A stretch of DNA of 64,000 nucleotides from Cordylochernes scorpioides (taxonomy: Eukaryota > Arthropoda > Arachnida > Pseudoscorpiones > Chernetidae). Location: NCBI GenBank assembly GCA_030710605.1, contig CP092882.1, positions 20,532,446-20,596,445 on the forward strand, written 5' to 3'. Position numbers and translations under genes: made by a program. Shown piece after piece: positions 13,518 through 61,997 of the stretch (position 1 is its first letter; the number at the start of each line of letters is the position of its first letter). The notes beneath the pieces were generated by a model. It was not told the origin of the DNA. It saw only the letters and a list, made by a program, of their open reading frames with translations, and ran no database searches.

Positions 13518-16231
13518 CACTTCGTTCTCTTTTTATGCGGTTTTTTTTTTTATGCGGTTTTGGAGTTATGCGGTGCAAGAAAAAAAAAATTTATTCGAAT
13601 TTCGAAATTTTATTTTTTTGGTGATTCACTTTTTCTGAAAACGAATAAGAATAACAACTACAACTCTACTATTACGCAATCAATACAAAGAAAGAATTTT
13701 GTAACGTCCTGGTTGTATGTTAAGTTATCCAACAAACAGTAGAGGGGAAGTTCCAATGTCTTTTATTCCGCGCCTGCCGGTGTCTTACACAACTCGTGCA
13801 AAACCGAAATCAAAACTGAAAACCCGCCGGCGTGCCAGCTGCCGTTACAAATTTCTTTTTTATTTTATTGACATGTTTTCTCTTGATTTGTTCTTAAAAC
13901 AAAAGAGACAAAAACAAAAATACCTCGTCAAAATTGCGTGTTTTTATGCTGCATTTTGTTTTTGTATGAAACTAATTAAAAAAGCCTGCATATTGGAAAG
14001 CATTAGAAAATAAAACTTTGTGAAAGAAGGTTACTACCGAAAACCGGAAGATAAATTTACTCAAGTGAATTGTAAGTTTTTTTGAATAATTTTAGTGCGT
14101 AATTGTACATTAAGTTTTTTCTATAATTTTTAGTCCTCTTAAAGAAAATGTGTGACAATAATAAAAAACAAAAAAGAAGTGCAATTTCGCTAGAAACCAA
14201 AATTATAATTCTCGATTGCTTGGCGAAAGGAGAAAGATCAACAGCAATAGGTAAACGTTATAATTTAGGCGAATCTACTATAAGAGCAATAAAAAAAAAT
14301 GAAGCGGCAATAAGAAGATCAGTCAGATCTGGTACAAATTTGAGTTCTAAAATTTCATCATATTCAAGAGGCACTTTAATAGAAAAAAACAGAAAAGGCT
14401 CTCGTAATTTGGATTGAAGATTTAACTCAAAAAAGAATTCCGTTAGATGGACATTTAATCAAGATGAAAGCCCTTAAATTTTACAAGGAGTTAAAAGAAT
14501 CAGAGCCATCTACATCTTCACGTGAAAGTAATCCACAATTCTCTGCCAGCACAGGGTGGTTAACTGGTTTTATAAAAAGACATTCTTTTCATAATCTAAA
14601 AATAAAAGGTGAGGTGGCTTCTGCAGATGAAGAAGCTGCTAGAAAATATCCTGAAAAGTTGGCTAAAATTATTAAAGATGGAGGATATTGTGCCCATCAA
14701 ATCTTCAATGCTGATGAAACAGGATTTTTTTTGAAAAAAATGCCAACCCGTACTTACATTGCAAAGTCCGAAAAAAATGCCAGTGGTTTTAAAGCTGCTA
14801 AAGATCGAGTTACTTTATTGCTGTGCAGCAATGCATCTGGCGATCGAATGTTAAAACCGCTGCTTGTAAATCGATCTTTAAAACCACGTGCATTAAAAGG
14901 AAAAGACTTAAATACACTGCCCGTACATTGGATGGCAAACAAGAAGGCCTGGGTAACAACGGCTATTTTCACTGAATGGTTCAATAAATGCTTCGTACCC
15001 GAAGTAGAAAATTATATGAAAGAGATGGGTCTCGAATTTAAGATCTTATTAATTCTTGACAATGCACCAGGTCATCCAAACTTAGAACATCCAAATATAA
15101 AGGTAGTTTTTTTCCCTCCAAACACAACGAGCCTAATTCAACCATTAGATCAGGGAATTATTTCAACATTTAAAAAATATTATGTAAAATTCACTTTCCA
15201 ATTCATTTTCGATAAACTGGAATCCGATACAATAACAGTTACTGAAGTTTGGAAACAATTTAATATCTTGAACTGTGTAGATCATGTTGCGTTAGCAATT
15301 GCCGAGATAAAATCACAAACTTTAAATGCATGTTGTAAAGCTGCTTGGCCTGAATGCGTATCAAAGAGAAATGAATCAAATAGAACAACAATAGTAACAT
15401 CAGATATTATTTCAATTGCTAAGGAAATAGGTGGGGAAGGTTTTGATGATTTTGGCGAGCATGATATAGAAGAATTGCTTGTGGACGAAGCCCTAAATGA
15501 TGATGATATTTTGGAAAGTATGGTAGATACTACTAAAGATTTCGAAACAGTAGATAGCGAACTGGAAGATGTTACTCCACTGGACGAAAAATTACTTCGG
15601 GAAGGCCTTCAACTTTCCGGTAAATTGGAAAAATTTTTTTATTCAAAATGATAATGATGTAGAACGCGCCTTAAAATTCCAACGTGATCTGAAATTTTGT
15701 ATGTCTGGCTACAGAGAACTCTACAAAGAACTAGTCAAGCCATCACAGCGTTTGATTACTGACTACCTTGTCAAAGAAAAAAAAAATCACTGAAGTTCCT
15801 AAAGAAGCATTACCATGTAGATCTGATGACGTAATTTTATCTTCAAGTGATGAAAGTGATCTTGCACCACTCCACAAACGGGTTCGCACATTATCAGACA
15901 GCGAATAATGATGAAAACATTCTTAATATGATTTTAAATAAAGTTTTGTTTATGTTTTTTTTTTTACATATTAAGTTTTGTTTTTGTTATTAACACACAT
16001 ATGTGCCATTTATTAAAATATGATGAGAAAAAAATTAAATCTTATTATTTATAAATCTTTTTTTATGCGATTTCTGGTGCATTTTAAAACATTATTTAGG
16101 TTTTATGCGATTTTTTTAATAAATGGAACGTATCCATCATTTTACATATAAATGTATGTCTTTTTTTGTGCGATTTTTTTTAATGCGGATTCCCCTGGAA
16201 CGCATCTACCGCATAAAAAAAGAACCAAGTG
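13518..16231 (+). mobile_element. Tigger/pogo-type element
   Basis: Inverted ends CACTTSGTTCTYTTTTTATG with TA duplications at 13516-13517 and 16232-16233. Length 2,714 bp. Sub-terminal 'TTATGCGATTT' motifs repeat at both ends. It holds one transposase gene and sits inside an HP1 repeat. Confidence 0.9.
14148..15908 (+). pseudogene. Tigger/Jerky-type DDE transposase, frameshifted
   Basis: N-terminal psq/CENP-B-like helix-turn-helix ('KRSAISLETKIIILDCLAKG', 'GESTIRAIKKNE'), then the second CENP-B-type DNA-binding domain. The catalytic domain follows with 'FNADETGFF' (first D), 'LLILDNAPGHP' (second D) and 'IQPLDQGII' (third D region). The acidic C-terminus ends 'LSDSE'. The frame breaks near 14385 (A run), 15640 (T run) and 15780 (A run). 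All three breaks are in homopolymers, so either the copy is recently inactivated or base-calling is at fault. The enzyme would cut and paste at TA sites. Domestication looks unlikely because the inverted ends are intact around it. Confidence 0.9.
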
Positions 16232-18727: not shown

Positions 18728-21700
18728 TTAAACAACTTCGGGCAATGAGGAAGGTGAATTTTGGGGCAATGATGGAGAATCTTGAGTAATTTCTGAAATT
18801 GATTCTTGGGATATTGCTGAGGAATCTTGGGGCATTGTGGAAGATGGCTCTTTGTGCATTGGTGAAGAATCACGGGGAATTGTAGATGATAATTCTTGGG
18901 TCATTGGTGAAGGAAGTCTTTGGGGCATTGAAGATGATGGTTCTGGCAGTATTGATGAATAATTTTGGGACAGTGAGGAATCTTGGGGTATTGTGGAAGA
19001 TGTTTCTTCAGGCATTGGTGAAGGAGATTCTTGTAGCATGGGCAAATGCATGGGAATTGGTGAGGATGGTTCTTGGGGCATTGGTGAGGATGGTTCTTGG
19101 GGCATTGGTGAAGATGGTTCTTGGGGCATTGGTGAAGATGGTTCTTGGGGAATTGGTGAGGATGGTTCTTGGGGAATTGGTGAGGATGGTTCTTGGGGCA
19201 TTGGTGAAGATGGTTCTTGGGGCATTACATAAGATGGTTCTTGGGGCATTGGTGAAGATGGTTCTTGGGGAATTGGTGAAGATGGTTCTTGGGGCATTGA
19301 TGAGGATGGTTCTTGGGGTATTACATACGATGGTTTTTGGGGTATTGGTGAAGATGGTTCTTGGGGCATTGGTGAGGATGGTTCTTGGGGCATTGGTGAG
19401 GATGGTTCTTGGGGCATTGGTGAAGAGGGTTCTTGGGACATTACAGAAGTTAGTTCTTGGGGAATTGGTGAAGATAGTTCATTGGGAATTGCAGAAGATA
19501 GTTCTTGAGACATTGGTGAAGATAGTTTGTGGGGAATTGGTGAAGATGGTTCTTGTGGTATTAATGAAGATGGTTCTTGGGGCATTGGTGAAGAGGGTTC
19601 TTGGGGAATTGAAGAAGATGGTTCTTGCCATATTAATGAAGATGGCTCTTGGGGCATTACAGAAGCTAGTTCTTGGGGAATTGAAGAAGAGAGTTCTTGG
19701 GGCATTACAGAAGCTAGTTCTTGGGAAATTGAAGATGAGGGTTCTTGGGGCATTACAGAAGCTAGTTCTTGGGGAATTGAAGAAAAGGGTTCTTGGGGCA
19801 TTACAGAAGCTAGTTCTTGGGGAATTGAAGAAGAGGGTTCTTGGGGCATTACAGAAGCTAGTTCTTGGGGAATTGAAGAAGAGGGTTCTTGGGGCATTAC
19901 AGAAGCTAGTTCTTGGGGAATTGAAGAAGAGGGTTCTTGGGGGATTACAGAAGCTAGTTCTTGGGGAATTGAAGTAGAGGGTTCTTGGGGCATTACAGAA
20001 GCTAGTTCTTGGGGAATTGAAGAAGAGAGTTCTTGGGGCATTACAGAAGCTAGTTCTAGTCCTTGGGGAATTGAAGAAGATGGTTCTTGGGGCATTGGTA
20101 AGGACAGTTCTTGGGGCATTGGTGAAGATGGCTCTTGGGGCGTTACAGAAGCTAGTTCTTGGGGCATTAATGAAGAATCATTGGGTAATGTGGAAGATGG
20201 TTCTTGGTATATGGGTGAAGAATCATGGGATATTGTGGAAGAAGGTTCTTGGTGCATTGATGAATAATCTTGATACATTGGTGAATGTACAATTGACGAA
20301 AAATTATGGGCTACCATTGGCGATACATCTTGTGATATTGAGGAAGATGGAAGCATTGATGAAGAATCTTGGGACATTGATGAATATTGGGGCTTTGGTG
20401 AAAGAGTTTGCCTAGGCATTGAAGATAGTTCTGGTAGAATTGATGAGAAATCCTGGTGCTTTGGTGAAGGGGGATCTTGGGTTATTGAAGAAGTGGAAGA
20501 TATATTTTGAGAAATCGGTAGTGAAGATAGGCCTTGGGGCAATGGTTCTTGTAGCATGGATGATGAATCTTGGGACATTGAAGAAGGTGCTTCTTGGAGC
20601 ATGGATGAGCAAGTTTCTTGAGATTTTGGAGAATCTCTGGGCATTGAAGAAGAATCTTGGGGTATTGCAGAAATTGAATCATGGTACAATGGCGAAGAGG
20701 ATGGGTCTTGAGGTATTGAAACAGATGAAACTTGAAGCATTGCAAATGATGTGCTATGAGGCAATGTGGATAGTGGTTCTTGAGGCAACGAAGAAGCTGA
20801 ATCGCATTGCATAGCTACAGGTGGATCCTGGGAGGTAAGTGACAAAAGTTGAGGAGGGGATTCCGGTGTTGTGGTAGAAGAATGCTTGGAGCCTGCCGAC
20901 AACAGGGGAGAGCCTTGCAGAAAGGAGGAGGTTGGGATGTGGGGCAGAGAGGAGGAATCTACAGATATGGCTGAACCAAGGGATGATGAGGTAGAAGATG
21001 GTTCCTGAGAGATGTCCTGAACAAAGGATGGGGGGAGCAAAGATGGTTCTGCCAGTAGAGAAGCTGCTTGGGAAAATAAAGGCAGTGGATTTTGTGGCAT
21101 CAAAGAGGAAGATGTGGAAGTTATATTGGGTGATGAAGATTCAGGGGTTGAGGTGTTGACCTGTGCTGTGGAGTCCAGGTGAAACTCTATATAGGGGCCT
21201 TGCGACAAGGAAGAGGATGGTTCTTCAGATAATGCGGAATTTGATTGATCTGGGGATATGGAATAAGGGCATTCGGGCAATGCTGAAGATGATTCATCAG
21301 GAATAGTCAAATACGGACCATTTGACAGTGCTGTTGATGACTCATCAGGAGGTGCTGGGCCGGAGGCGTCAGGCAGGGCTGAAGAGGATTCACTAGGAGG
21401 TACTGAAGACAATTCATCAGGTGCCACTGAATTAGAACTGTCAGGCAATACTGATGAACCATCAGGAACTATTGAATAGGTGCCATTAGGTAATGAAGAT
21501 TCATCGGGTAAAATGAAATATGTGACAGTGGACAATGCAGAGGATTCATCAGGAGACGTTGAATGTGTGGCATCAGGCAATACTGATGCGTCATCAGGAG
21601 GTGTTGAGGTGTTAGAGCCATCAGGCAATGCAGATGACGAATCATCGGGGATTGTGAAATATGTGGCAGTGGGCAATGCAGATGACTCACCCGGAGGTGT

Positions 21701-24496
21701 TGACTGTGTGGCCTCTGGCAACATTGATGAATCATCATCAGGAGGTTCTGGATAAGTAACATCAGGAGGCTTTGAATAAGAGCCATCAGGCAAGGCAGAT
21801 GATGAATCATCAGGGATTGTGAAGTATTCAGGCTCAACCACTGATGCCTCATCAGATGTTGAATGGGTGATGTCAATCACTGATGACTCATTGGGAGGTG
21901 TTGAATCAGAGGAGCCATCAGGTAATGCTGATGAAGAATCATCAACAATCATAAAATAGGAGGTTTTGGGAAATGTGGATAACTGATCTTTTGGTTCTAA
22001 ATAGGTGGCATCAGGCACTACTGATGACCCATCAGAGGATGTTGAATGTGCGGTATCAGGCAATACTGCTGACTCGTCAGGAGGTTCTGAATAAGTGGCT
22101 TTAGGCAATGTTGATGATTCACCAGGAGATGTTGAATGTGTAACATCAAGTACTACTATTGATTCATCGGGAGGAGTTGCATATGAAGCATCGACTGAGG
22201 AAGATTCGTCGGCAGTTGATACAGCAAGTTGCATAGAGGAGGATTCATCAGGGAGGGCAGAAGGTATTGCATTCTGAACGTCAGGCAGCGCAGGGGTTGT
22301 TTCAGCAGGGGCTGAGGTAGGTAGTGAAGAAGCTAAGGAGAATGAAGGCCCAGGACGAAACAGGGAATGTTTCAAATGAGCTTTCTTAAATAAATACCTG
22401 GATTTAGCTTCTCTAAGACGGGCTGCCAGGGAGTAGCTGTCTTCATAGGATGGATAACCCCCCAAGGAAGGTTTAAGTGGAAACCTGGTGAGGTCATCAG
22501 AGGATGTCGAGGTGCTGTCATCAGTTGGTGAATCCCCAGAATCCCGATTCAACTCTTTAAAATCCTCTGGATATTGCAACATAAGGTAGTCAATGTTACT
22601 GAGAGGCTTTGGCAAAGGAGACATGGGCTCCTTTTTGACAACTATATTTTCATAAACTATCAATGGAGACATGGAGTCATCTCTGGGAACACCATCTGGT
22701 GATGGAGACATGTCTTTGGGAACAGCAGCATTAGGATCCTCAAGCAGTGATGGCATGGAGTTGTCCTCAAGAACTGGAGGTTTAAGAACCTCTGGCAATG
22801 GAGACATGGAGTCATCTTTGGGAAGTTCTTCTGAATTAGGATCTTCTGGCAAAGGAGACATGGAGTTATCTTTGGGAAGTGCTGAATTAGGATCTTCTGG
22901 CAAGGGAGACATGGAGTCATCTATGAGAAGTTCTGAATTAGGATCTTCTGGCAAAGGAGACATGGAGTCATCTTTGGGAAGGGCTGAATTAGGATCTTCT
23001 GGTAATTCAGACAAGGAGTCACCTTTGGATAGTGCTGAATTAGGATCTTCTGGCAAGGGAGACATGGAGTCATCTATGAGAAGTTCTGAATTAGGATCTT
23101 CTGGCAAAGGAGACATGGAGTCATCTTTGGGAAGTGCTGAATTAGGATCTTCTGGTAATTCAGACATGGAGTCATCTTTGGGAAGTGCTGAATTAGGATT
23201 TTCTGCTAATTCAGACATGGAGTCATCTATGAGAAGTTCTGAATTAGGATCTTCTGGCAAAGGAGACATGGAGTCATCTTTGGGAAGTGCTGAATTAGGA
23301 TCTTCTGGTAATTCAGACATGGAGTCATCTTTGGGAAGTGCTGAATTAGGATCTTCTGGCAAGGGAGACATGGAATCATCTTTGGGAAGTTCTGAATAAG
23401 GATTTTCTGGCAAAGAAGACATGGAGTCATATTTGAGAAGTGCTGAATTAGGATCTTCTGGCAAGGGAGACATAGACTGGTCTTCAAGAACAGCAGATTT
23501 TAAAACTTCTGGCAATGGAGTCCTGGAGTCACCATCAGATTCCTCTGGCAATGCAGTAATAGATTTGTCTTCAGGAACAGAAGATTTAAGAACCCCTGGC
23601 AATGGAGTCTTGGAGTCACCATCAGGCATTGCTGGCAATGAAGACATAGATTGGTCATCAGGAGCAGCAGATTTAAGTTCCTCTGGAAATGGAACCCTGG
23701 AGCCACTATCAGGTACTGCTGGCAATGGAACCCTGGAGTTCCAATCATGTTCCTCTGGTAATGGAGTCCTGGAGTCACCATCAGGTTCGTCTGGTAATGG
23801 AGTCCTGGAGTCACCATCAGGTTCCTCTGGCAAAGAAGAATTGGAGACACCATCAGGTATTGCTGTCAATGGAGTCCTGGAGTCACCATCAGGTTCCTCT
23901 GGCAAAGAAGAATTGGAGACACCATCAGGTATTGCTGTCAATGGAGTCCTGGAGTCACCATCAGGTTCGTCTGGTAATGGAGTCCTGGAGTCACCATCAG
24001 GTTCCTCTGGCAAAGAAGAATTTGAGTCACCATCAGGTATTGCTGGCAATGGGGACCTGGAGTCACCATCAGGTTCCTCTTGCAAAGAAGAATTTGAGTC
24101 ACCATCAGGTATTGCTGGCAATGGAGACCCGGGGTCACCATCAGGTTCCTCCAGCAATGGAGACCTAGAGTCACCATCAGGTTCCTCTTGCAAAGAAGAA
24201 TTTGAGTCACCATCAGGTATTGCTGGCAGTGGAGACATGGATTGGCAATCAGGAGGCAAGCAATGTGGCCTGACATAACGGCGGACACGGCGTAACCGGC
24301 GACGAGGTACCTTGTACCTGGTAATGGGAAAGTAAGGGGCTATCCAGGGGCTGCCTTCCTTCTTGGCCCGGGCTCTGCAGGCCATGAACCAATCCATGCA
24401 GGCATCCTCCTCCTCCTCCGTCACATGGTCCTCCACCCACTTGGCATGCCAGTCCTCAAACCTGGAGGTTTTGATGGAGGAGAGGGTGCGATGGTT
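18728..24496 (-). CDS. sin3: sin3 exon 16: conserved Sin3 end plus giant repeat tail
   Basis: The exon opens after a 66-bp intron (acceptor GTGTTACAG) in phase 0 with NHRTLSSIKTSRFEDWHAKW, matching the C-terminal 'RFQ.W..KW..EHV' block of Sin3 proteins. 'PITRYKV' aligns with the usual last residues of Sin3 ('KYRV'). Ordinary Sin3 proteins stop about there. This frame stays open for about 1,840 more codons to a TAA. The tail is low-complexity, rich in S, P, D, E and Q, and built of several repeat blocks listed separately. It is predicted to be disordered and PEST-like, with very many S-P sites. A linker near 22320-22660 contains VKKEP, a sumoylation-type motif. The absence of stops over 5.5 kb, in frame with conserved sequence, supports translation, but no transcript evidence is available here. 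Confidence 0.85.
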   Translation of the reverse strand, partial: NHRTLSSIKTSRFEDWHAKWVEDHVTEEEEDACMDWFMACRARAKKEGSPWIAPYFPITRYKVPRRRLRRVRRYVRPHCLPPDCQSMSPLPAIPDGDSNSSLQEEPDGDSRSPLLEEPDGDPGSPLPAIPDGDSNSSLQEEPDGDSRSPLPAIPDGDSNSSLPEEPDGDSRTPLPDEPDGDSRTPLTAIPDGVSNSSLPEEPDGDSRTPLTAIPDGVSNSSLPEEPDGDSRTPLPDEPDGDSRTPLPEEHDWNSRVPLPAVPDSGSRVPFPEELKSAAPDDQSMSSLPAMPDGDSKTPLPGVLKSSVPEDKSITALPEESDGDSRTPLPEVLKSAVLEDQSMSPLPEDPNSALLKYDSMSSLPENPYSELPKDDSMSPLPEDPNSALPKDDSMSELPEDPNSALPKDDSMSPLPEDPNSELLIDDSMSELAENPNSALPKDDSMSELPEDPNSALPKDDSMSPLPEDPNSELLIDDSMSPLPEDPNSALSKGDSLSELPEDPNSALPKDDSMSPLPEDPNSELLIDDSMSPLPEDPNSALPKDNSMSPLPEDPNSEELPKDDSMSPLPEVLKPPVLEDNSMPSLLEDPNAAVPKDMSPSPDGVPRDDSMSPLIVYENIVVKKEPMSPLPKPLSNIDYLMLQYPEDFKELNRDSGDSPTDDSTSTSSDDLTRFPLKPSLGGYPSYEDSYSLAARLREAKSRYLFKKAHLKHSLFRPGPSFSLASSLPTSAPAETTPALPDVQNAIPSALPDESSSMQLAVSTADESSSVDASYATPPDESIVVLDVTHSTSPGESSTLPKATYSEPPDESAVLPDTAHSTSSDGSSVVPDATYLEPKDQLSTFPKTSYFMIVDDSSSALPDGSSDSTPPNESSVIDITHSTSDEASVVEPEYFTIPDDSSSALPDGSYSKPPDVTYPEPPDDDSSMLPEATQSTPPGESSALPTATYFTIPDDSSSALPDGSNTSTPPDDASVLPDATHSTSPDESSALSTVTYFILPDESSLPNGTYSIVPDGSSVLPDSSNSVAPDELSSVPPSESSSALPDASGPAPPDESSTALSNGPYLTIPDESSSALPECPYSISPDQSNSALSEEPSSSLSQGPYIEFHLDSTAQVNTSTPESSSPNITSTSSSLMPQNPLPLFSQAASLLAEPSLLPPSFVQDISQEPSSTSSSLGSAISVDSSSLPHIPTSSFLQGSPLLSAGSKHSSTTTPESPPQLLSLTSQDPPVAMQCDSASSLPQEPLSTLPHSTSFAMLQVSSVSIPQDPSSSPLYHDSISAIPQDSSSMPRDSPKSQETCSSMLQEAPSSMSQDSSSMLQEPLPQGLSSLPISQNISSTSSITQDPPSPKHQDFSSILPELSSMPRQTLSPKPQYSSMSQDSSSMLPSSSISQDVSPMVAHNFSSIVHSPMYQDYSSMHQEPSSTISHDSSPIYQEPSSTLPNDSSLMPQELASVTPQEPSSPMPQELSLPMPQEPSSSIPQGLELASVMPQELSSSIPQELASVMPQEPSTSIPQELASVIPQEPSSSIPQELASVMPQEPSSSIPQELASVMPQEPSSSIPQELASVMPQEPFSSIPQELASVMPQEPSSSISQELASVMPQELSSSIPQELASVMPQEPSSLIWQEPSSSIPQEPSSPMPQEPSSLIPQEPSSPIPHKLSSPMSQELSSAIPNELSSPIPQELTSVMSQEPSSPMPQEPSSPMPQEPSSPMPQEPSSPIPQKPSYVIPQEPSSSMPQEPSSPIPQEPSSPMPQEPSYVMPQEPSSPMPQEPSSPIPQEPSSPIPQEPSSPMPQEPSSPMPQEPSSPMPQEPSSPIPMHLPMLQESPSPMPEETSSTIPQDSSLSQNYSSILPEPSSSMPQRLPSPMTQELSSTIPRDSSPMHKEPSSTMPQDSSAISQESISEITQDSPSLPQNSPSSLPEVV
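18990..19440 (-). repeat. Tail block: 24-bp units, PQEPSSPM
   Basis: Near-identical 24-bp units give an 8-residue repeat PQEPSSPM with P/I, M/I and S/Y changes. Because 24 is a multiple of 3, expansion keeps the frame. Confidence 0.9.
19440..20095 (-). repeat. Tail block: 48-bp units, PQELASVMPQEPSSSI
   Basis: A 16-residue unit made of two related 8-residue halves, repeated about ten times with few changes. It seems to be a duplicated and diverged form of the neighbouring 8-residue repeat. Confidence 0.9.
20900..22260 (-). repeat. Tail block: degenerate PDESS-type repeats
   Basis: Loose 13-17 residue units around 'PDESSSALPD..YST'. They are much more diverged than the flanking blocks, so probably older. 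Confidence 0.8.
22660..23490 (-). repeat. Tail block: 51-bp units, EDPNSALPKDDSMSPLP
   Basis: A 17-residue unit repeated about 15 times with A/E and PKD/LID alternation. Some pairs of units are duplicated together. Confidence 0.9.
23500..24235 (-). repeat. Tail block: PDGDSRTPLPEE-type units
   Basis: 12-13 residue units (PDGDSRTPLPEE, PDGDSNSSLQEE) repeated from just after the conserved Sin3 end. Confidence 0.88.
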
Positions 24497-24562: not shown

Positions 24563-25113
24563 CTGGTGGGCGGTCACCAGGGCCCTGTCCCAGTAGAGCA
24601 GGAAAGAGGTCCCCTGGAGGAGGGACAGGTGGAAGGAGTACTTTTCAATGTCCACCTCCTGCCTGTCCCACACGTGGAATCTGCCGGCCTGGAGGGGATC
24701 CTGGCACCTCTCCTGCCCCAACCTCTTGTTCCTGGGGAGGAACACAGGCAGCACAGGCTGTACAGGGAGGGAGGGTGCTGCGGTGATGTCCAGATAAGCT
24801 TCCTTGTACTCCTCCAACTCCTGCATGGCGTCCGCAAAGTAAGGCTCACTCTCATCCTCTTGATTGATGCAGAGCAGCTCCATGGCTATATCGCCCTGGT
24901 GCTGGTGAACACACGCAGGATGACAAATGTCCTTTCATCACAGTTATTGTCACTCACAGAGGTGACCTTGAAGATGTGGTCATGGACAGTGGGCAGAGTC
25001 TCCACCCTCCTGCGGTAGTAGAGTTCAAGGGAGCGGGAGACCTGGTCTGTGGTGAAGAAGGGTTCCATCAGACGGAGGAACTCGGTGCAAGGGTCCGCTA
25101 CCAGTTTCTGGAG
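24563..25113 (-). CDS. sin3: sin3 exon 15, with apparent one-base deletion
   Basis: Begins after acceptor TCTACAG with LQKLVADP, which follows TRQ of exon 14 as in other Sin3 proteins ('RQLQ'). It continues through 'SDNNCDERTFVI', then 'IAMELLCINQ', 'VFLPRNKR' (a well-conserved Sin3 motif) and ends 'RALVTAHQ' before donor GTGAGT. The two halves are in different frames. The change falls at the C run 24894-24896 (G run in the gene). Exon length is 551 nt, while phase 0 in and out requires 552. One lost base therefore explains both facts. Confidence 0.88.
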
Positions 25114-25834: not shown

Positions 25835-26130
25835 TTTTGAGCCAATGTCAACTCACAGATTAAAAACAATTAATTTGGCAGTATTGTTTGTTTACAAACA
25901 CGTGCAAAAACTTATAAATGCTCCAATGGCCCCCTGATTCTTGCAAAAGTCCAAACCCACCAGCGAGTGCAAGTAACCAAACGGGGCTCTGGCATATTTG
26001 TAAGTGCAAAGTCGAACAGCTTTTCACATGTGTAGCCACGTGGTGCACTTACAGTAAAAGTGGTCGCCTATTTCTATCCACATTGATTATCATGGCCTGT
26101 ACCATGTGTACTAGGGATAAGCAAGAAAAA
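25835..26130 (+). repeat. tRNA-SINE, long-variant body without head
   Basis: Shares the block 'ACTCACAGATTAAAAACAAT...' with 7790-7890, then the usual body, 'GTGTACTAGGGATAAGC' and A-rich tail. Confidence 0.75.
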
Positions 26131-26307
26131 ACATATTCTATTTTTGCCAATGTTATTTACATTTCTCTGCACTCTTATTAATTAACATCTTTATATTCAA
26201 CACAAACACAACAACAACACATCAAGTTTAAAGTGGAAAATATTTACAAATGACTTCCAAAAATAAGAAAAATGACAAGAGAAAAAGTTTTTCTTAAAAT
26301 ATATACA

Positions 26308-26484
26308 AGTAGAACCTCTCTATAAAGGACACCTATTTGGAGAAACAAAGTGTTCTTTAGAGAGAGATGTCTTCTTACTGGAGAGTTGCTAAATAGTAAA
26401 AATGGTAATTTTGTCAATGAAAACTGTCCTTTATAAAGAGGTATCCTCTAGCGCAAGTGTCCTCTCAAGGAAGTTTTACTATAT
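26308..26484. repeat. MITE of the CAGTAGAACCTC family
   Basis: 'AGTAGAACCTCTCTATAAAG' start with a decayed right end 'GGAAGTTTTACTATAT'. Confidence 0.65.
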
Positions 26485-26572
26485 ATCAATAGATAAAAGT
26501 AGCCATTATATTACAGCTTTTGTAAGTGAACACAATGCAAGAGAGAGAAAAACTTAAAAACAACTTTAAAAA

Positions 26573-26692
26573 AAAATTATCCCTAGTATATGTGGTACAG
26601 GCCATGATAATCATGGTGGCTCTTTGTTGGTGACTACTTCTACAGTAAGTGCACCACATGTGCAAAGCATTGCAACTTTTATACTTACAAGT
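26573..26692 (-). repeat. Older SINE, 3' part, split by a younger SINE
   Basis: Diverged minus-strand copy ending at TATACTTACAAGT. The rest resumes at 27007. Confidence 0.8.
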
Positions 26693-27006
26693 AGGGGGGT
26701 CGGTGGAAGGCTGGTTAAACCGTTTGGTTTCGACCACTACGACCCGGGTTCGATTCCCGCATTGGACACTTTTTATGTTTAAAATAAAAAATGCTCCAAT
26801 GGCCCCCGATTCTTGCAAAAGTCCAACCCCACCAGCGAGTGCAAGTAACCAAACGGGGCTCTGGCACATTTGTAAGTGCAAAGTCGAACTGCTTTCACAT
26901 GTGTAGACATGTGGTGCGCTTACAGTAAAAAGCAGTCGCTAACTACCCACCATGATTATCATGGCCTGTACCATGTGTACTAGGGATAAGCAAAAAAATA
27001 TATATA
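26693..27006 (+). mobile_element. tRNA-derived SINE, full length, with 13-bp target duplication
   Basis: Head GGGGGGTCGGTGGAAGGCTG, B box GGGTTCGATTCCCGC, body and A-rich tail. TATACTTACAAGT occurs on both sides (26680-26692 and 27007-27019). This is the cleanest copy for defining the family ends. Confidence 0.93.
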
Positions 27007-27085
27007 TATACTTACAAGTGTGCCAGAGCCCCATTTGGTTACTTACACTCGCTGGTAGAGTTGGACTTTTGCAAAAATTGGGAGA
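27007..27085 (-). repeat. Remainder of the split older SINE
   Basis: Continues the copy at 26573-26692 from 'ACTTACAAGTGTGCCAG' to 'GCAAAAATTGGGA'. Confidence 0.78.
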
Positions 27086-27094
27086 CTTTGGAGG

Positions 27095-27280
27095 AAGTTG
27101 TACCTTTTAACATGTATATTGGGATTCTGAACAATAACTCTGAAATATATTTATACAGAGTGACCTTTATTGAAGACTCACAAGATAATCAAGTGTGAAC
27201 AATATTGCCTCTGTCTCCTTAAAAAAAATAGTTGACCGGTGACATCAAAGACTTTTCTTTAAGTTTTGTCCATATGTGTG
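27095..27280. repeat. Second copy of the mariner-type MITE
   Basis: Interior matches 150-325 ('GTTGTACCTTTTAACATG', 'CTTTATTGAAGA'). The inverted ends are mostly lost. Confidence 0.6.
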
Positions 27281-27475
27281 GAGTGTGTAATAATATTATC
27301 TTAAAATAAAATTTTATATATTATAGTATGCAATTAATAAAACTTTGGCTAGGATTCGTCATGATTTTAAATTAGACAAAAAGGTGAAGTTATAATATTT
27401 AAATGATCACAAGAATCAATCATCAAAAAGGACATCATTGTGTCTATTTAGATATACAGCTTTAATATATGGAAA

Positions 27476-27655
27476 TACAGTTAAACCTGTCTATAGCGCA
27501 CCCTCTTGTGATTCAAAAAAATAGGGTGCTATAGAGAGGGGGTGCTATAGACTGGTCAATTTTAATGTAAATCGCATCGTTCTATGTATTTAAAATTGGG
27601 TGCCATAGAGAGGAAGGCACTATTTAGAGGGGGTGCTATAGACAGGTTTATCTGT
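27476..27655. mobile_element. MITE with CAGTTAAACCTGTCTATAG ends
   Basis: Left end ACAGTTAAACCTGTCTATAG and right end the inverse (CTATAGACAGGTTTATCTGT), flanked by TA. Internal 'GGGTGCTATAGAGAGGGG' segments repeat. An opposite-orientation copy is at 37045-37190. Confidence 0.75.
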
Positions 27656-27821
27656 ATATTAATTTGTGGGAAATAAAAAAAAAAAAAAAAGCAATCATTA
27701 TTAAGAGATGGCCTTTTTTTTTCTGTTCTTTTATGTAACTATCCCTCAATAGCCTCTGAAACTATAATGAACCAAAATTTCAGTCCCATAGGGGTTCTTC
27801 ACTATAGGGAGGTTCTACTGT

Positions 27822-27975
27822 ATAGTGATACAAGGTTATAAGATCAAATGAATTAATAGTATACGATGATTTGGTATAAATGCTGTTCCCGAAACTATCA
27901 CACACTATTGATTTATTTGGATTTGAACTTATTACCTTGTAGTTCTAATTTATAATCCAAATTGTGCCTTATATC
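27822..27975. repeat. Foldback repeat, worn copy
   Basis: 'CAAGGTTATAAGATCAAAT', a broken core, then 'TTGGATTTGAACTTATTACC' and 'ATCCAAATTGTGCCTTAT'. Confidence 0.6.
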
Positions 27976-28765
27976 ACTGTATACTAATCTATAAAGGTCA
28001 CTTCTCTCTGGTCAAAATAGAACCAAGAACTATGTGCCATCTATTGACCATCTCTGTAAACTAGTAGACTCAGGTCAGTTGACAAAGCCATGATACCACT
28101 TTTGGGTAAATAATTTATTTATTTCACAAAAGTGATAGTGGCTCAGGTCACTCTAGGGAGATTTCTCTTGTAGTGCCACTCTACCCTGCACCAATACTCT
28201 GCAAGCCATGTGCCCATTGTATGGTGTGTATCGTTGGGCTATTCAAGGAGATCTTCAACATTCGCTGTGGGATCTGTAAAACTCCTACTGAAAAAAAAAA
28301 GTCATTTTTAAATGTTAATTCTTTGTAGTAAAATTTTGCCCCCGTATAATTTTTCGATTAAGAAAGGGTGCTACAAAACAATAAGCGCAAGACATTTATT
28401 TCAAACATGAAAGCAGATAAGGGCTCCAGGAAGAACCTGTGGATGGAAGGAAGGCTAGACCAGATTGTAATAGAAGAAACCCGTCGTCCATTGTTGTAGC
28501 AGCAGCTCTTGAGAGAAAAATTATAATTATCTATGAGGTTAATAGGGTTGAACCTCGTTATAACTGAATCCCTTGTGACCAAGAGATTTTATGTTGCTTA
28601 CAGTAGAGCTGTAAACAAAGACTGACCTACTTCAGACACATAAGGTGAACTAATGGTTTAGAAAAGATGTTAGGAAAAACTTGAAGGAAGAGAGGAAGAC
28701 TTGTAAGTGATGATCACTAACAAATCAAATTGGAGAATATTTCTCCATATAGTCACCAAATGTCG
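27976..28765. other. Intron 14, no recognised feature
   Basis: No exon of the sin3 series is expected here and none is seen. Confidence 0.4.
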
Positions 28766-28767
28766 AC

Positions 28768-29076
28768 TTTTTTTTTGCTTATCCCTAGTACATGTGGTAC
28801 AGGCCACGATAAACATAGTGGGTAGTTAGCGACTGCTTTTACTGTAAGCGCACCACATGTCTACACATGTGAAAAGCAGTTCGACTTTGCACTTACAAAT
28901 GTGCCAGAGCCCCGTTTGGTTACTTGCACTCGCTGGTGGGGTTGAACTTTTGCAAGAATCGGGGGCCATTGGAGCATTTTTTTTTTAAACAGAAAAAAGT
29001 GTCCAATGCGGGAATCGAACCCGGGTCGTAGTGGTCGAAACCAAACGGTTTAACCAGTCTTCCACCGACCCCCTAA
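28768..29076 (-). mobile_element. tRNA-derived SINE, full length, with 8-bp target duplication
   Basis: Complete minus-strand copy. GTCGACTT occurs at 28762-28769 and again at 29077-29084. Confidence 0.88.
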
Positions 29077-29099
29077 GTCGACTTGATGTACGCTAACAA

Positions 29100-29275
29100 C
29101 AAAAATAGTAGAACTACCTCTCTGTAAATACAACACCTAATTGCAGAGCCAAATTGTACTTTAGGGGGAGAGGTGTCCTCTTTACCACAATAAAGAAAAA
29201 TACTAATTTTGACAAAAAAGTGAAAATTGTCCTTTGTAAAGAGATGTCCATCTATATCCATGGAAATTCTACTGT
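29100..29275. repeat. MITE of the CAGTAGAACCTC family
   Basis: 'AGTAGAACTACCTCTCTGTA' start, shared interior, 'GGAAATTCTACTGTATA' end. Confidence 0.65.
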
Positions 29276-29399
29276 ATAATCATGGTTAAAACTATTGAGA
29301 TTTCTAAAAACTTGGGGCTTTGGAATTGGGATGTTGTAACCGCAATGTGGTTACAGCAAGCCCTCAGGCTGTAAATAACCCGGGGCGCCCGCGTGGCAG

Positions 29400-29585
29400 G
29401 CGAGCATTCTACCACTGAACCAAAAGCAAACGGTGACAGAAGTGTCTCGCGCATTGGCGGCACCAAATGATGGGGGGGGGGGGCAAAGGTGGCGTGATCG
29501 TAGCCGACCAATAGGAGGGCGCCATTCCAAAAAAAAAGCAAACCGTGACAGAGGCGACGAAGAATGACGCTCGTAACTGTATGTA
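29400..29585 (-). repeat. Helitron body fragment, inverted
   Basis: Minus-strand match to 8500-8600, including the 'CCTATTGGTCGGCTACGATC' region and a G run. No Helitron terminus is present. Confidence 0.5.
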
Positions 29586-29587
29586 TA

Positions 29588-29765
29588 TATAGTAGAACCT
29601 CCCTGTAAAGGACACCTTATTGCGGAGCCAAAGTGTCCTTTAGGGAGAGGTGTCCTCTTACCAGAGAGTTTCTAAAGAGTAAAAATGGTGCTTTAGCAAT
29701 GGAAACTGTCCTTTGTAGAGAGGTGAGCTCTAGTGCGAGTGCCCTCTAATGGAGGCTCTACTTTA
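29588..29765. repeat. MITE of the CAGTAGAACCTC family
   Basis: 'TAGTAGAACCTCCCTGTAAA' start and 'GGAGGCTCTACT' end, good interior. Confidence 0.7.
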
Positions 29766-29864
29766 TAAAAGAGGTTGTTATAATAACAGGGTTATGCTGT
29801 ATAGTGCTAACATATGTTACAATGAAATCCAACAAATCCATTGTTATCTCTAAGAGCAGTATAC

Positions 29865-30031
29865 CTGTCTGGTCAAGTTCAGCACAACACGATCCAGGCT
29901 GTAGGCCTTGTAGGCATGGAGAGTGAGCAGCCGACGCAGCTTGTCCTCGAAGATGGCCACGTCGTAGATCCCATCTAGCATGCAGCAGACGTAGTTGAGC
30001 AGGCTGCGGAAGTGGCCGTCTGGGTGGTCTT
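29865..30031 (-). CDS. sin3: sin3 exon 14
   Basis: Encodes EDHPDGHFRSLLNYVCCMLD, then 'FEDKLRRLLTLHAYKAYSLD' and ends 'LNLTRQ', matching the Sin3 stretch 'F....R.LLDG....YED.LR....IHAY.A...D'. Acceptor GGATAG and donor GTATAC. The phase-1 entry joins exon 13 and the phase-0 exit joins exon 15. Confidence 0.9.
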
Positions 30032-30129
30032 CTATCCTCCCCCACACACCAGCTCAGATTAACTTGTTGTGTGACACAGGGGGTGTTGGTTCATCAGGGG
30101 GAAACAATCAGAGAGCTATGGGAAGTCTT

Positions 30130-30560
30130 TTTTTTTTTAAATCATTATTATCTCAAGTACATGCGGAACCAGCCATGATGTTGTTGTTTCTTATCCCCTT
30201 GTGCAAAGATTATACAAATCCCATGAGTCTATGCTCCTCAAGCTGTTTGATGATAAGCAGCAGCCTCTCCCAAAGGTCTGACATACCATGATAATCCTAG
30301 TGAGTAATTTGCAATTACTTTTACACTAAGTTGCACCTCATTTCAAAACATGTAGAAGTGCAGTTCACCTTTTGCACCCACAAGTATGCCAGAGTCTTGT
30401 TTTGTTATTTTGCTATCGTTGGTGGGGTTGGAACAAGAATCGGAGACAAGTGAAACAATTTTATCTCATAAAAAGTGCCTGATACAGGATTTGATACCGG
30501 GTCGTAGCTGTCAAAAATGGATGGTGATGGATTTGCGCCATCCTTCACCAACTCCCTGAA
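30130..30560 (-). repeat. Old SINE carrying a nested non-LTR tail
   Basis: A much diverged minus-strand SINE is broken at about 30178-30278 by the inverted 3' end of an RNase H-type non-LTR element ('GTTGTTGTTTCTTATCCCC'). Confidence 0.6.
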
Positions 30561-31135
30561 AGTGTCCATCACTATTGGTCAAGTTATCTCCTACTTCACT
30601 CTTCTAACCATTTTATTAGACTGAAGAGAGATAACAAACTAGCAGAATATCTTTGAATGAACAATAATAAAAGCTGTATATAATGGTGAGAGAGAGCCTG
30701 ACATTTTTATAAAGTAAAAACCTTAACGATCCCTAGTTAAAGGATATAATTGTGTGTGCAATAAAATATACATAATTAAAATAGAAAAATGAAAGAATAA
30801 ATAAAAAATATTTTTTTTTAAACAATAAAAAAAGAAACTATAAATCAAACTCAATAAAAAAAATAATAATAAAAAAAAGAATTTCTTTTTAAATCAAACT
30901 CCTTTGTTTATTACATAGACTTTAATAAAACATAAAGAGAGGCTATTAAGGTTTAGAGAGATTGTGATCTAATACACAGAGTAAAACTTTGTTACAGTGA
31001 AAAATTCAATGACTTGACTGAACTTTGGTTATAAGGGAAGATTCACTATATTTACCTAGCAAGGTTTTACTGAACATAACTACAGTGTAGTTATATGAAA
31101 CAAAGTTTGATTTTGAGAGATGTTCTACTGAATCA
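30561..31135. other. A/T-rich intron 13, no recognised feature
   Basis: Long A-rich and T-rich runs, no coding signal. Confidence 0.4.
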
Positions 31136-31137
31136 GA

Positions 31138-31585: not shown

Positions 31586-31595
31586 ATTACAAATA

Positions 31596-31796: not shown

Positions 31797-31867
31797 TTCT
31801 ATTTTAAAGAAACTAGCAAGGGGAAGAAGATGGAGATAGTTTCAAGTAAAAGTTATATTTAGTGGGA

Positions 31868-32025: not shown

Positions 32026-32063
32026 AAGTATACTAGAATTGATGGTGTGATGTGAAAGGTTAC

Positions 32064-32205
32064 CTGAAGGGTTGGCATTGGTCATCTCATCAGCCTTGGT
32101 CTTGAGGTCCACCATCCTCTCCTTGAAGATGTAGAGGAGGCGGAGAGTGAGGTACCAGGGAGCCGTACAGAACAGCAGCCGGTGTTTGGCTTCCTCTCCT
32201 ATGGC
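32064..32205 (-). CDS. sin3: sin3 exon 13
   Basis: Encodes AIGEEAKHRLLFCTAPWYLT, then 'LRLLYIFKERMVDLKTKADE'. It aligns with the Sin3 C-terminal-domain motif 'LF..NNWY.F.RLH..L..RL'. Acceptor ATAGCAG, donor GTAACC, phases 0 and 1. The usual NNN before WY is replaced by TAP. Confidence 0.88.
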
Positions 32206-36202: not shown

Positions 36203-36315
36203 ATTTCGAACGATAGGACTCTTTTAAATTGTAAGGTGCACACAGCACATATAAAGTTTCAATTAAATACCCCCTAAAAGTTAAAGACTTGTGTTGCTCC
36301 AACATCACCTCTTAC

Positions 36316-36614
36316 ATAGACCACATAGGTGGGTTGCCAAGTTACCATGGGGTTGGAGGTAAAGGCCAACACGGGGAGTTCAGGGGTTGGGATGTCTTCT
36401 AAGGCTTCGGCATAGTTGATCATGGGAGGTTTGGGCAGTCCCTGCTCATCAAGTTGTTGGTTGTTGGAGTCAGTGGGGAGATCCTGGTCTATGGGGCCGG
36501 CAGCTTGCTGCTCTTGGGCGGTCTCTTCTCCTTCCATAGGACCTGGAGCCACTCTGGGGTGTTCCGGAGGTGGAGGTGGTGGTAGTGGAACTGGCGGTGG
36601 AGGAGCTGGGCACA
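36316..36614 (-). CDS. sin3: sin3 exon 12, proline-rich insert
   Basis: Phase-1 acceptor GGGGGACAG and donor GTAAGAG after TYVVY. The 100 codons start with a polyproline run (VCPAPPPPVPLPPPPPPEHP) followed by an acidic, glutamine-rich stretch. It lies between conserved C-terminal-domain pieces, where Sin3 proteins usually have a variable acidic linker. The polyproline could bind SH3, WW or profilin-type domains. Confidence 0.82.
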
Positions 36615-37044
36615 CTGTCCCCCAACTCTTTTATAGACAGGCGGTGTCACATTAAATGATACACAACAATAATAACAAAATAGAGATTATATCCTAAGTT
36701 GATTAATCACCTGGATCAGTATATTATCAAAAGAAGAACAAAATTGTGAAATGAAGGGTTGTTTATTGTAAGGTCTTCATCTAGCTGAGCTTTTGAGTAT
36801 TTCTGCCCTTCTACAAGGGGAATAAAACTAAAGAAAGAGATTTTCCCAAGATCATGAAATATTCAGAATCACCCAAGAGGTGTTTGTCAAACTGCCACTT
36901 TTGGCCCTGACACTGTCTGCTAAATAAGTCCCTAGATGGTGCAGAGGGGAAGAAAGAGGTAACCTTTCTTTTTGGATCAATTTTCTACCAGCAACATTTA
37001 CACATTATTAGGTTTTAAAATTGACCTTAAACTATATATATACA

Positions 37045-37388: not shown

Positions 37389-37633
37389 TAATAATAAGAG
37401 AACTCAAAATAATTAGAGCAAAAATAAAAATGGATAATTTCACATTTTTACAGATAGATGGCGCCATATGTTGTGTACAAACAAGAGAGAGAGAGAGATA
37501 TGGAGGACCATCATGGAGGTTATTCTTTGGACTTCCTCATGACATTATCATCCTGTCAGGAAGTTGAAATCTAGCTTAGCAATTGTCAGGATTACACTTA
37601 TCACTGGGGACACTAGATCCTCTGGTATCTCAC

Positions 37634-37801
37634 CTTCCATTATGACATCGTCCTCATCTCCGCTGTCCAGAGAGACAGAGATCATCCGGGGCGGAGTGAC
37701 GGGTTCTCCGGACTCCAGCACCAGAGTGGGCAGGTCCAGGAACTGGGGGATGGGCACCAGGAGCAGCTCAATGATGGCCTTCTTCTCCTCCTTGCTCAGT
37801 T
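37634..37801 (-). CDS. sin3: sin3 exon 11
   Basis: Encodes ELSKEEKKAIIELLLVPIPQ and then an acidic run 'SLDSGDEDDVIME'. It corresponds to the Sin3 segment where 'I...L....PDL' is followed by an acidic patch. Acceptor CCTTCCAG, donor GTGAGA, phase 1 at both ends. Confidence 0.87.
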
Positions 37802-38069
37802 CTGGAAGGTGACAACAACATCCACATCAATACTGTGGGTGAGAGAACATAGGAGAATGGTTTTCTAAGCAAGATTAGAATGCGGGGAAACTGGAATATG
37901 GAGCAGGATCTCAACCATTTTAATATACTGGAATACCAATTTAATAGGATTTCAAGGGACCACGAAAAATCTGCATAATGTGATGATGTTAACATTTTGG
38001 CTAACAATTTAAAGAACTATTATATTTGATTAATGTGATGTGAGGCAAACAATATATTCACACAAAAAT

Positions 38070-40884: not shown

Positions 40885-41068
40885 CTCATCATAGAGGGCA
40901 TAGATATTGTTGAGGAGGGCTTTAGAGCGCAACCGGTGGAGGTCATTGATGCGGAAGTTGATGCCGCGGCTGTCCAAGGAGCGCAGGTAGAAGGTGTCAA
41001 TGACCTTCTTCCAGTAGCAGTTGTACTTGATCTGGGCCACCCGCCATTCCTCCAACTTGGCCCGCAGC
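40885..41068 (-). CDS. sin3: sin3 exon 9
   Basis: Encodes LRAKLEEWRVAQIKYNCYWK then 'FYLRSLDSRGINFRINDLHR' and 'SKALLNNIYALYDE'. This is highly similar to Sin3 'K.EEW..AQ..FN..W......YLKSLDH.G..FK..D...LRSK.LL.EI...YDE', the end of the HDAC-interaction region. Acceptor TGTCACAG, donor GTCAGT, phases 2 and 0. Confidence 0.93.
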
Positions 41069-41126: not shown

Positions 41127-41207
41127 CTCTTCATCACCAGTGGGATAGCTACCACAGGATTGTCCTTCAAGCCCTGGAAGAGATCCTCAGCCTTGTCTCC
41201 GTACAAC
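41127..41207 (-). CDS. sin3: sin3 exon 8
   Basis: Encodes LYGDKAEDLFQGLKDNPVVA then IPLVMK, matching 'IYGDKA..II..LKKNP..AVP.VLKR'. Acceptor GTCTCCAG, donor GTGAGT, phase 2 on both sides. Only 58 bp of intron separates it from exon 9. Confidence 0.93.
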
Positions 41208-41310
41208 CTGGAGACATCAAACTTTGTCACATTGGGTAGATGCCGCGACAGGAACTTCCAAATGTGTAAAATAAAAAGTGGACCCCAACCAAAACAAGCC
41301 TCTAACATTG

Positions 41311-44126: not shown

Positions 44127-44172
44127 AAAGACAGAACATGTACCACAATGTGTAGAAAGAGGCAGGGCATAC

Positions 44173-44330
44173 CTGCGTATGGTGAGGAAGTGAAGAATGT
44201 TGGAAGTACTGTGCAGGGAGTCGTCCAGCACAAAGCTCTTCTTCTCCTCGCTACTCATGTTCTCAATCTTGGCCTGGAGCTCCTCCAGGTGGGTCAGGGT
44301 GTATTGGCTGGTGGAGATGGCATGGTCCAG
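44173..44330 (-). CDS. sin3: sin3 exon 7
   Basis: Encodes LDHAISTNQYTLTHLEELQA then 'SSEEKKSFVLDDSLHSTSNI', aligning with Sin3 'LD..LETN..TI..LE..QKKLS.M..E....F.LDD.LGGTSEVI'. Acceptor GTACTGTAG, donor GTATGC, phases 0 and 2. Part of the HDAC-interaction domain. Confidence 0.92.
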
Positions 44331-45923: not shown

Positions 45924-46046
45924 CTCAAACCTCTCGTCCTCACAGCGGTACATCTTCTCCTCAAAGGGAGTCTTGGGGGTGGTGAGGAAGGAGGTGGCTT
46001 GTTCGTCGGACCAACAAGGGAAGGAGATGTATGTGTCGTTGAGGAC
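45924..46046 (-). CDS. sin3: sin3 exon 6
   Basis: Encodes [20 protein letters not shown] then '[19 protein letters not shown]'. This is the most recognisable Sin3 block (VLNDTWVSFPSWSED ... [17 protein letters not shown]) in the HDAC-interaction domain. Acceptor GATGTGTAG, donor GTAATC, phase 0 at both ends. Confidence 0.96.
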
Positions 46047-48551: not shown

Positions 48552-48691
48552 CTCCCTACAGAGGTCAGTTCTGCCGGAACAAGAAGGGTGAGGGTAGGTG
48601 CTGGGCAGGATGCGGTAACTGGCTCCTTTGGCCTTCAGACTGTAGTAATCTGAACACACATAGCGGCTGATCACACGGCAATCCACCAAAC
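48552..48691 (-). CDS. sin3: sin3 exon 5
   Basis: Encodes 'VDCRVISRYVCSDYYSLKAK', 'GASYRILPSTYPHPSCSGRT' and 'DLCRE', matching the start of the HDAC-interaction domain ('C.R.G.SYRALP.SY..P.C.GRT..C.E'). Donor GTATGG, phase 0. The acceptor chosen (GACGGAG before GTTTGG) satisfies phase 1 and gives 140 nt, but its polypyrimidine tract is poor, so the start is less certain. Confidence 0.88.
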
Positions 48692-51700: not shown

Positions 51701-52032
51701 CGGCTATCAACTTTGGGAATATGTAGTTACAGGGCAACTAACTTCAAAATTTTGGTCACAAGACAACCAATGTTATAACGAACAAGAAAACTTTGATAAA
51801 GATGAGTGGATTACACATTTAAAAAAAAAAAAAATCAACATTATTAAAGATTATCTTTATATCCAAGATATCTCTGAGTTTTTTTAAATGCTACACACCC
51901 ATATATATTACCAAGTAGGTAGTTTATCTATTTAGACCTGTGGTGATGTTACATCTTAGATTTTCAGCTTTCCACACCTTGAAACCCCATGATCCAACAT
52001 ATATGCCACCCAGTTAAAACAGAACAACTTAC

Positions 52033-52160
52033 CAACTTCATGTTCAAAATCTTCCGGGATGTCTTTAGTGGGGAGGTCCGTGCGGACCAGGACCCCCTCG
52101 TCTGGCTCTCCTTCCAGTCCCAGAATGTTGCGCATGCCCAGGCACAGCTCCGGGTAGCCC
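52033..52160 (-). CDS. sin3: sin3 exon 4, end of PAH3
   Basis: Encodes GYPELCLGMRNILGLEGEPD then 'LPTKDIPEDFEHEV'. GYPEL..... matches the last PAH3 helix ('KFPELFNWFK.FLG'). Acceptor GTTCTAG, donor GTAAGT, phases 2 and 1. Confidence 0.88.
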
Positions 52161-59152: not shown

Positions 59153-59274
59153 CCCATGGCTTCCTTGGTCCGTTCGTACAGCTCAAACCTGGAGATGATG
59201 TCTTGGTTATAGAGATTGATGAGCTTGAGGAAGTTCTCATAGGCTCCTGGGTCCTTGCTCAGGGTCTGTTGGAC
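59153..59274 (-). CDS. sin3: sin3 exon 3, PAH3 core
   Basis: Encodes VQQTLSKDPGAYENFLKLIN, then 'LYNQDIISRFELYERTKEAM', matching PAH3 'FFDKVRKALR...AYENFLRCL.LFNQEIISR.ELV....PFLG'. Acceptor CTATCCAG, donor GTGAGT, phases 0 and 2. PAH3 is the third paired amphipathic helix, a four-helix protein-binding fold. Confidence 0.94.
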
Positions 59275-61866: not shown

Positions 61867-61953
61867 TTTATCAAAGAAGCGATACTCAGCATAAGTGGCG
61901 TATTGGGCAACTTTGGCGTAGCTAGGGTCGACGTAGCTGGGCAGCTTGTATTT
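61867..61953 (-). CDS. sin3: sin3 exon 2, start of PAH3
   Basis: Encodes KYKLPSYVDPSYAKVAQYAT then YAEYRFFDK, the entry to PAH3 ('FFDKV'). Acceptor TTTGTGCAG, donor GTAATT, phase 0 both sides. Confidence 0.9.
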
Positions 61954-61997
61954 CTGCACAAACACAATTACACTTATGAGGTTAGATAATAGAAATT

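Follow-up and report, generated by a model that had tools for sequence, protein, structure and literature searches.

Most accounts of Sin3 present it as a conserved scaffold, with N-terminal PAH domains that bind transcription factors. In Drosophila, the isoforms of Sin3A differ at their C-terminus through alternative splicing, and one of them, SIN3 220, carries 315 unique C-terminal residues that are predicted to be unstructured and possibly protein-binding (PMC5902990). The SIN3 220 complex includes Caf1-p55, KDM5/LID and EMSY, three partners absent from SIN3 187 (PMC5902990). Lethality is rescued by a SIN3 220 transgene and not by a SIN3 187 one (PMC10651107).

Here we analyse a Sin3-like gene of the pseudoscorpion Cordylochernes scorpioides, found on the minus strand of a 64,000-nucleotide stretch of contig CP092882.1 (assembly GCA_030710605.1, positions 20,532,446 to 20,596,445 of the forward strand), hereafter the window. 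Its last exon runs past the usual end point of Sin3 proteins and stays open for another 1,859 codons, which we call the tail. The HDAC-interaction domain (HID) and the Sin3a_C domain of canonical Sin3, SIN3A and SIN3B proteins (human Sin3B, structure 8bpa) are present in this gene. It differs from them in sequence (~43% identity), in having no detectable PAH2, and in its tail, whereas canonical proteins end within ~60 residues of the WLMG box. With Drosophila SIN3 220 it shares the combination of a HID-bearing scaffold and a C-terminal extension past the common part; in SIN3 220 this extension is predicted to be unstructured and proposed to bind extra partners. The Drosophila extension has 315 residues against 1,859, and it belongs to a spliced isoform of a single Sin3A gene, whereas the gene described here is a separate paralog. 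A functional long disordered C-terminal extension of Sin3 is thus not new in kind. What is new is the length and minisatellite make-up of the tail, the fact that only a divergent paralog carries it, and the absence of a detectable PAH2. A full-text literature search, judged by titles and abstract openings, returned no description of a Sin3 of such sort.

The last exon and its tail

The last exon lies in a stop-to-stop open reading frame (ORF) of 1,937 codons (24541-18731, minus strand), closed by a TAA at 18730-18728. It opens at the acceptor TTACAG/AAC (24497/24496) and then reads NHRTLSSIKTSRFEDWHAKWVEDHV...PYFPITRYKV. Two weak, concordant alignments identify its start as a Sin3 C-terminus. 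A tblastn search with a human SIN3 query gives a match over 24925-24380 (24% identity, E 1e-4, the alignment crossing an intron), and the exon also matches the final exon of a conserved Sin3 found elsewhere in this genome and described below (32% identity across 56 residues; E 0.007 and 0.011). In Pfam, the joined core matches Sin3a_C only up to a point upstream of this exon. RYKV ends at 24308, and from there up to the TAA no stop occurs in 1,859 codons. A preliminary description of the window had proposed that the last exon reads through the usual end and stays open, which is confirmed; the long tail that it put at ~1,840 residues stands, with a computed length of 1,859.

The three sense frames of the tail contain 0, 57 and 149 stops, and the antisense frames 199, 35 and 60. 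Over 300 first-order Markov shuffles of the tail, the mean was 78.6 stops (minimum 52) and the longest open frame reached 244 codons. Since repeats alone can hold a frame open, we place the evidential weight on the less repetitive 885 codons (22816-20162), which hold no stop against 22 and 79 in the remaining sense frames. An open frame due to repeats only is an insufficient explanation, since this segment is also stop-free, and it was set aside.

Two further features accompany the open frame. The period-3 signal of the 555-bp non-repeat patch is 6.2, compared with a maximum of 5.5 in 300 samples of the same length drawn from positions 26000-45000, a control stretch that is mostly intron. Two longer tail segments give 41 and 21, values probably raised by their own repeats. 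The repeat periods of the tail are divisible by 3 in all 11 rows at a score of at least 80 (the rows overlap and are hence non-independent) and in 17 of 18 rows at a score of at least 50, the exception being a poor row of period 26. Among the multi-base arrays outside the tail in the window, one of three has such a period.

Serine makes up 22% of the tail and proline 17%, with leucine, aspartate and glutamate at ~8-9% each. Its net charge, summed by segment, is ~-224: the basic linker at the junction contributes +7 and the remainder -231. This composition, together with a single-sequence fold of the 185-residue patch (185 of the 1,859 tail residues; mean predicted local distance difference test score, pLDDT, 55.8; helices of 26 and 5 residues), suggests that the tail is probably disordered, a single-sequence model of an orphan patch being weak evidence. 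Both results agree with the preliminary description of a repetitive, S/P/D/E/Q-rich and disordered tail. The VKKE sumoylation-type motif that it listed is present, once.

The same description had likened the tail to the C-terminal domain (CTD) of RNA polymerase II. Both are long, Ser/Pro-rich, tandemly repeated and C-terminal. The units of the tail are of 8, 12 and 17 residues, however, against the heptads of the CTD; the tail is strongly acidic, and its S/T-P pairs are not enriched, with 70 found against 83.9 +- 7.1 (standard deviation) expected from 2,000 same-letter shuffles. A CTD-like platform was dropped as a specific claim, given the S/T-P count under the composition expectation and units that are not heptads.

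A Pfam scan of the whole 1,937-codon ORF gave no match in the tail, and a PDB search with the patch gave none. In its own genome, the patch is found in one place by protein search, with no second copy; the DNA search returns the patch itself and five weak matches to its own neighbouring arrays. The last C-terminal exon pair of the gene likewise has no second copy in the genome.

A search with the core of the gene recovered 705 relatives among 7,983 scored candidates. The best 120 of the 705 show either 42-47% identity across roughly half the query or 30-35% across most of its length. The search admitted proteins of ~1,000 to 3,170 residues, so that a longer relative would be missed; within this range, a long tail is absent from the best 120. 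In 117 of them, 34-58 residues separate the start of the WLMG box from the protein end, and the other three, which lack the exact pattern, also end nearby. The preliminary description also stated that family members stop only a few residues beyond this motif. The 315 added residues of Drosophila SIN3 220 speak against this as a general rule, yet the 120 listed relatives are all short-ended.

Core domains, paralogy and layout of the locus

The Sin3-like exons are spread over the minus strand from 61956 to 24496 (Table 1), with a half PAH1 exon at 67983, 4 kb beyond the window. The hand-joined core matches Sin3_corepress (PF08295) with 113 bits (cut-off 25) and Sin3a_C (PF16879) with 83 bits (cut-off 26.8; profile positions 49-237 of 281). 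Its HID aligns with the solved human Sin3B structure 8bpa at E 5e-70. In the genome profile search, one Sin3a_C exon alone scores 36.8 bits. The last exons join in phase 0 at RQ/LQ, FKVTS/GDIAMELL and AHQ/NHRTL, as judged by eye, with the first donor taken from splice pairing; these junctions align with homologous residues in other Sin3 proteins.

The PAH region is reduced. PAH3 is partial, with 29 bits for Pfam PAH (cut-off 21.3) and 29 bits with a PAH3 profile built from relatives, and PAH1 gives a weak match for its second half only (20 bits). The best PAH2 match in the 124 kb around the gene is 9.9 bits, where the same profile gives 144 bits in the canonical Sin3 of this genome. The PAH profiles were built from database relatives, and a split or heavily changed exon would escape them. 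As the interval from PAH1 to PAH3 is free of sequence gaps, PAH2 is lost, split or altered past recognition.

Profile searches covered the assembly that contains the window (2.62 Gb in 24 contigs). Sin3_corepress was matched seven times: four times in a Sin3 on contig C12 (80.51-80.53 Mb), once in the window and twice on contig C2. Sin3a_C was matched five times, with four matches on C12 and one in the window. In its HID, the C12 Sin3 shares 69% identity with human SIN3, and both C12 copies end YALYHLYRST-stop at the usual place, without tail. Identity between the window gene and the C12 Sin3 is 42.7% over 347 aligned core columns (~43% over 347-372 residues), and for the 18 database relatives aligned alongside, the identity with the window gene core reaches 45.2% at most. 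The core exons of the window gene are open. Judged from these alignments, it is a divergent, fast-evolving Sin3 paralog and not the main Sin3 of the genome. The preliminary description had treated it as the organism's Sin3; the conserved, tail-less Sin3 lies on C12 instead.

A quick tree took 18 of 24 chosen relatives and left out six without the anchor motif, among them lice and crayfish; because of this loss and of the unsafe placement of the window gene in the tree, both cores were compared with each of the 120 listed relatives. By this measure, the top scores of the C12 core are with Rhipicephalus, a tick, and five more proteins, 4/5 with tick-like ends. It scores lower with lice, molluscs, a nemertean and crayfish, and Ornithodoros and Varroa, likewise among the ticks and mites, also fall below Rhipicephalus. 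On this ranking, a chelicerate source is likely.

The conserved Sin3 occurs twice on C12 (80.505-80.577 Mb), in blocks of ~86-97% DNA identity, with the front halves together and the back halves together. These blocks may be uncollapsed haplotypes or a tandem duplication. Contig C2 holds two copies, 125 kb apart (11.398 and 11.523 Mb), of a very divergent Sin3-like gene, each with a HID (39 bits) and upstream sequence within one open frame (333 and 361 codons).

Table 1. Features of the window, in order of position, with the basis of each assignment.
Feature	Coordinates	Strand	Basis
GIY-YIG domain fragment	2831-3454	+	23.1 bits, cut-off 22.6
Transposase, two overlapping frames	5586-7387	+	Pfam DDE_Tnp_1_7
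Transposase, two overlapping frames	14127-15651	+	Pfam CENP-B_N, HTH_Tnp_Tc5, DDE_1
AATAAA polyadenylation-type signal, 108 bases past TAA	18615..18620	-	
Final exon of the window gene (divergent sin3 paralog): Sin3 C-terminus, 1,859-residue tail and TAA	18728..24496	-	
S/P/Q-rich C-terminal end of tail	18731..19051	-	
Array 3: 8-residue (24 bp) unit PQEPSSPM / PQELASVM	19052..20161	-	
Weakly repetitive S/Q/P-rich segment	20162..21211	-	
Degenerate acidic S/P/D repeats, PDESSSALPDATYST type	21212..22261	-	
Non-repeat patch: VKKE motif and one predicted helix (YEDSYSLAARLREAKSRYLFKKAHLK)	22262..22816	-	
Array 2: 17-residue (51 bp) unit PEDPNSALPKDDSMSPL	22817..23641	-	
Array 1: 12-residue (36 bp) unit PDGDSRTPLPEE, 13 copies in register	23642..24241	-	
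Basic linker PRRRLRRVRRYVRPHCLPPDCQ, charge +7; candidate nuclear localisation signal	24242..24307	-	
Sin3 C-terminus (NHRTL...PITRYKV), usual Sin3 end point	24308..24496	-	tblastn to 24380; C12 last-exon match; C12 end equivalent
Sin3a_C exon GDIAMELL...VTAHQ; 62-bp and 66-bp flanking introns, phase 0 both sides	24563..24895	-	splice sites by eye; tblastn similarity; Pfam alone 11.7 bits, below cut-off
Sin3a_C exon LQKLVADP...HIFKVTS	24958..25113	-	splice sites by eye; Pfam alone 15.4 bits, below cut-off
Sin3a_C exon (EDHPDGHFRSLLNYV...NLTRQ)	29865..30041	-	similarity and splice pairing
Tentative exon (LLFCTAPWYLTLRLLYIFKERM)	32095..32178	-	weak similarity, E 0.83
Weak endonuclease/reverse-transcriptase fragment, within sin3 intron	34761-35306	-	17.2 bits, below cut-off 27.4
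Tentative proline-rich exon	36310..36630	-	position and open frame only
Tentative exon (ELSKEEKKAIIELLLVPIPQFL...)	37617..37802	-	position and by-eye similarity only; no consistent splice pair to neighbours
HID exon (LRAKLEEWRVAQ...NNIYALYDE)	40885..41068	-	
HID exon (RLYGDKAEDLFQGLKDNPVVAIPLVMKR), 5' end provisional	41127..41215	-	
HID exon; 3' end taken from alignment, donor provisional	44172..44330	-	
HID exon	45924..46046	-	50.5 bits alone in genome Sin3_corepress search
HID start exon, 5' end provisional	48552..48666	-	
Tentative exon between PAH3 and HID	51978..52160	-	splice pattern only
PAH3 exon	59153..59274	-	Pfam PAH 29 bits, cut-off 21.3
PAH3 start (KYKLPSYVDPSYAK...FFDK)	61867..61956	-	weak: E 0.014; 11 bits

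Besides the gene, the window contains mobile elements. We take the first of the two transposases to be piggyBac-type and the second pogo/Tigger-type; the GIY-YIG fragment possibly belongs to a Penelope-like element. Intronic tandem arrays include a 32-bp array at 49395-51693 and a 23-bp array at 57006-57499. Near the conserved Sin3 on C12, at ~80.587-80.592 Mb, an open frame of 1,690 codons contains expanded short tandem repeats; its first 897 codons have no Pfam match. This genome may thus be rich in giant minisatellites that code for protein.

A probably translated tail, and the alternatives

The kept domains and the open tail are seen directly in the sequence. From them we judge it probable that the window gene specifies a working HDAC scaffold, a second Sin3 with a disordered acidic arm.

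Several results weigh against this reading. A 42-bp minisatellite of 39 copies (46582-48214) lies in a sin3 intron between two exons, outside the gene model, and within a 627-codon ORF, so that repeats by themselves prove little. Copies of the tail repeats were also compared in a test of the dN/dS type (nonsynonymous against synonymous change). The ratio supports the reading frame in array 3 (0.61, with 1.21 and 0.96 in the other frames), leaves array 1 ambiguous (0.72, with 0.74 and 1.18) and does not support the reading frame in array 2 (0.84, with 0.75 and 1.36). The intronic 42-bp control array gives 0.83, 0.63 and 0.73, likewise below 1. This test of purifying selection is weak, being clear in one of three arrays. 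At third codon positions, GC is low in the tail, at 0.30, and higher in five core exons, at 0.54; the tail therefore differs from these exons in codon make-up. Residues 600-790 and 580-980 of the ORF, searched as tail queries, found no protein at E<=1 (0 of 1,116 and 0 of 7,995 scored candidates), hence conservation cannot be shown. Right at RYKV, two donor-like sites were noted by eye, CAG/GTACAA (GT at 24317) and AAG/GTACCT (GT at 24310), and a shorter spliced form is thus possible. Upstream, automatic splice pairing gave no consistent junction in two of 14 exon pairs, both flanking the 37.8-kb exon, and for some further pairs its picks differ from the sites used in the model, so that the exon model is provisional in the middle of the gene. 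Finally, the quick tree places the gene on an extremely long branch, so that its position there is unsafe.

Alternatively, the tail may be untranslated in most or all transcripts. Splicing near RYKV would then remove it, or short and long forms would coexist as in Drosophila Sin3A, whose C-terminal isoforms come from alternative splicing (PMC5902990), and the repeats would be open 3' untranslated or intronic minisatellites. The two donor-like sites, the weak test inside the arrays, the deviating third-position GC and the other non-coding minisatellites of the window, one of them within the 627-codon ORF, all point this way. The 885 less repetitive codons, stop-free where the other sense frames hold 22 and 79, argue for translation instead, as do the period-3 signal of the patch and the repeat periods, divisible by 3 in each of the 11 high-scoring tail rows but not in two of the three multi-base arrays elsewhere in the window. 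We regard an untranslated tail as unlikely, though by no means negligible.

The tail could also belong to another gene lying downstream, separate from sin3 or recently fused to it, with a frame that is continuous with sin3 by chance. Composition shifts abruptly near 24240, and the canonical Sin3 of the same genome is without tail, as such an origin would suggest. Yet the patch has neither a second copy in the genome nor a Pfam or PDB match, and the frame is unbroken from the Sin3 C-terminal exon, hence no intergenic space is left. This makes a separate gene or fusion quite improbable. Just as improbable is a decaying pseudogene with the open tail as a relic: the very long branch, the undetected PAH2, the half PAH1 and some unsettled junctions would fit it, but ~43% identity is kept over the 347-372 aligned core residues, the core exons are open, the HID scores 113 bits, and without constraint, a frame of 1,937 codons should not last long.

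Proposed role of the tail

If the gene is a working scaffold with a translated tail, its protein would remain a platform for class I HDACs, and the tail would form a disordered, negatively charged arm. The tail may have arisen through loss of the usual stop or through the addition of sequence from downstream. It would then have been lengthened by expansion of the 24-, 36- and 51-bp minisatellites, constrained to stay open. Its role could resemble the one proposed for the C-terminal extension of Drosophila SIN3 220, as a paralog-specific extension that adds partners or changes stability, and it would perhaps recruit factors in place of the weakened PAH domains. The basic linker at the junction might help to bring the protein into the nucleus. 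If the tail has a specific binding site, the single helix predicted in the non-repeat patch is the strongest candidate for it.

More tentatively, and with considerable doubt, the gene could represent a second kind of animal Sin3, which dropped most of the PAH module for transcription-factor docking and gained, at its opposite end, a giant acidic disordered arm that is specific to the locus and grew from minisatellites. In such a scaffold, a disordered tail would have replaced folded docking domains, and it could evolve freely because the conserved Sin3 does the normal work.

If this holds, the HDAC half is kept, PAH2 is undetected and the tail is ~6x the fly SIN3 220 extension, which would make the gene a natural experiment on corepressor specificity moving into disordered sequence. 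As the genome also contains an unmodified Sin3, a direct test of what the tail does would be possible. It would also mean that intragenic minisatellites can build very long protein regions.

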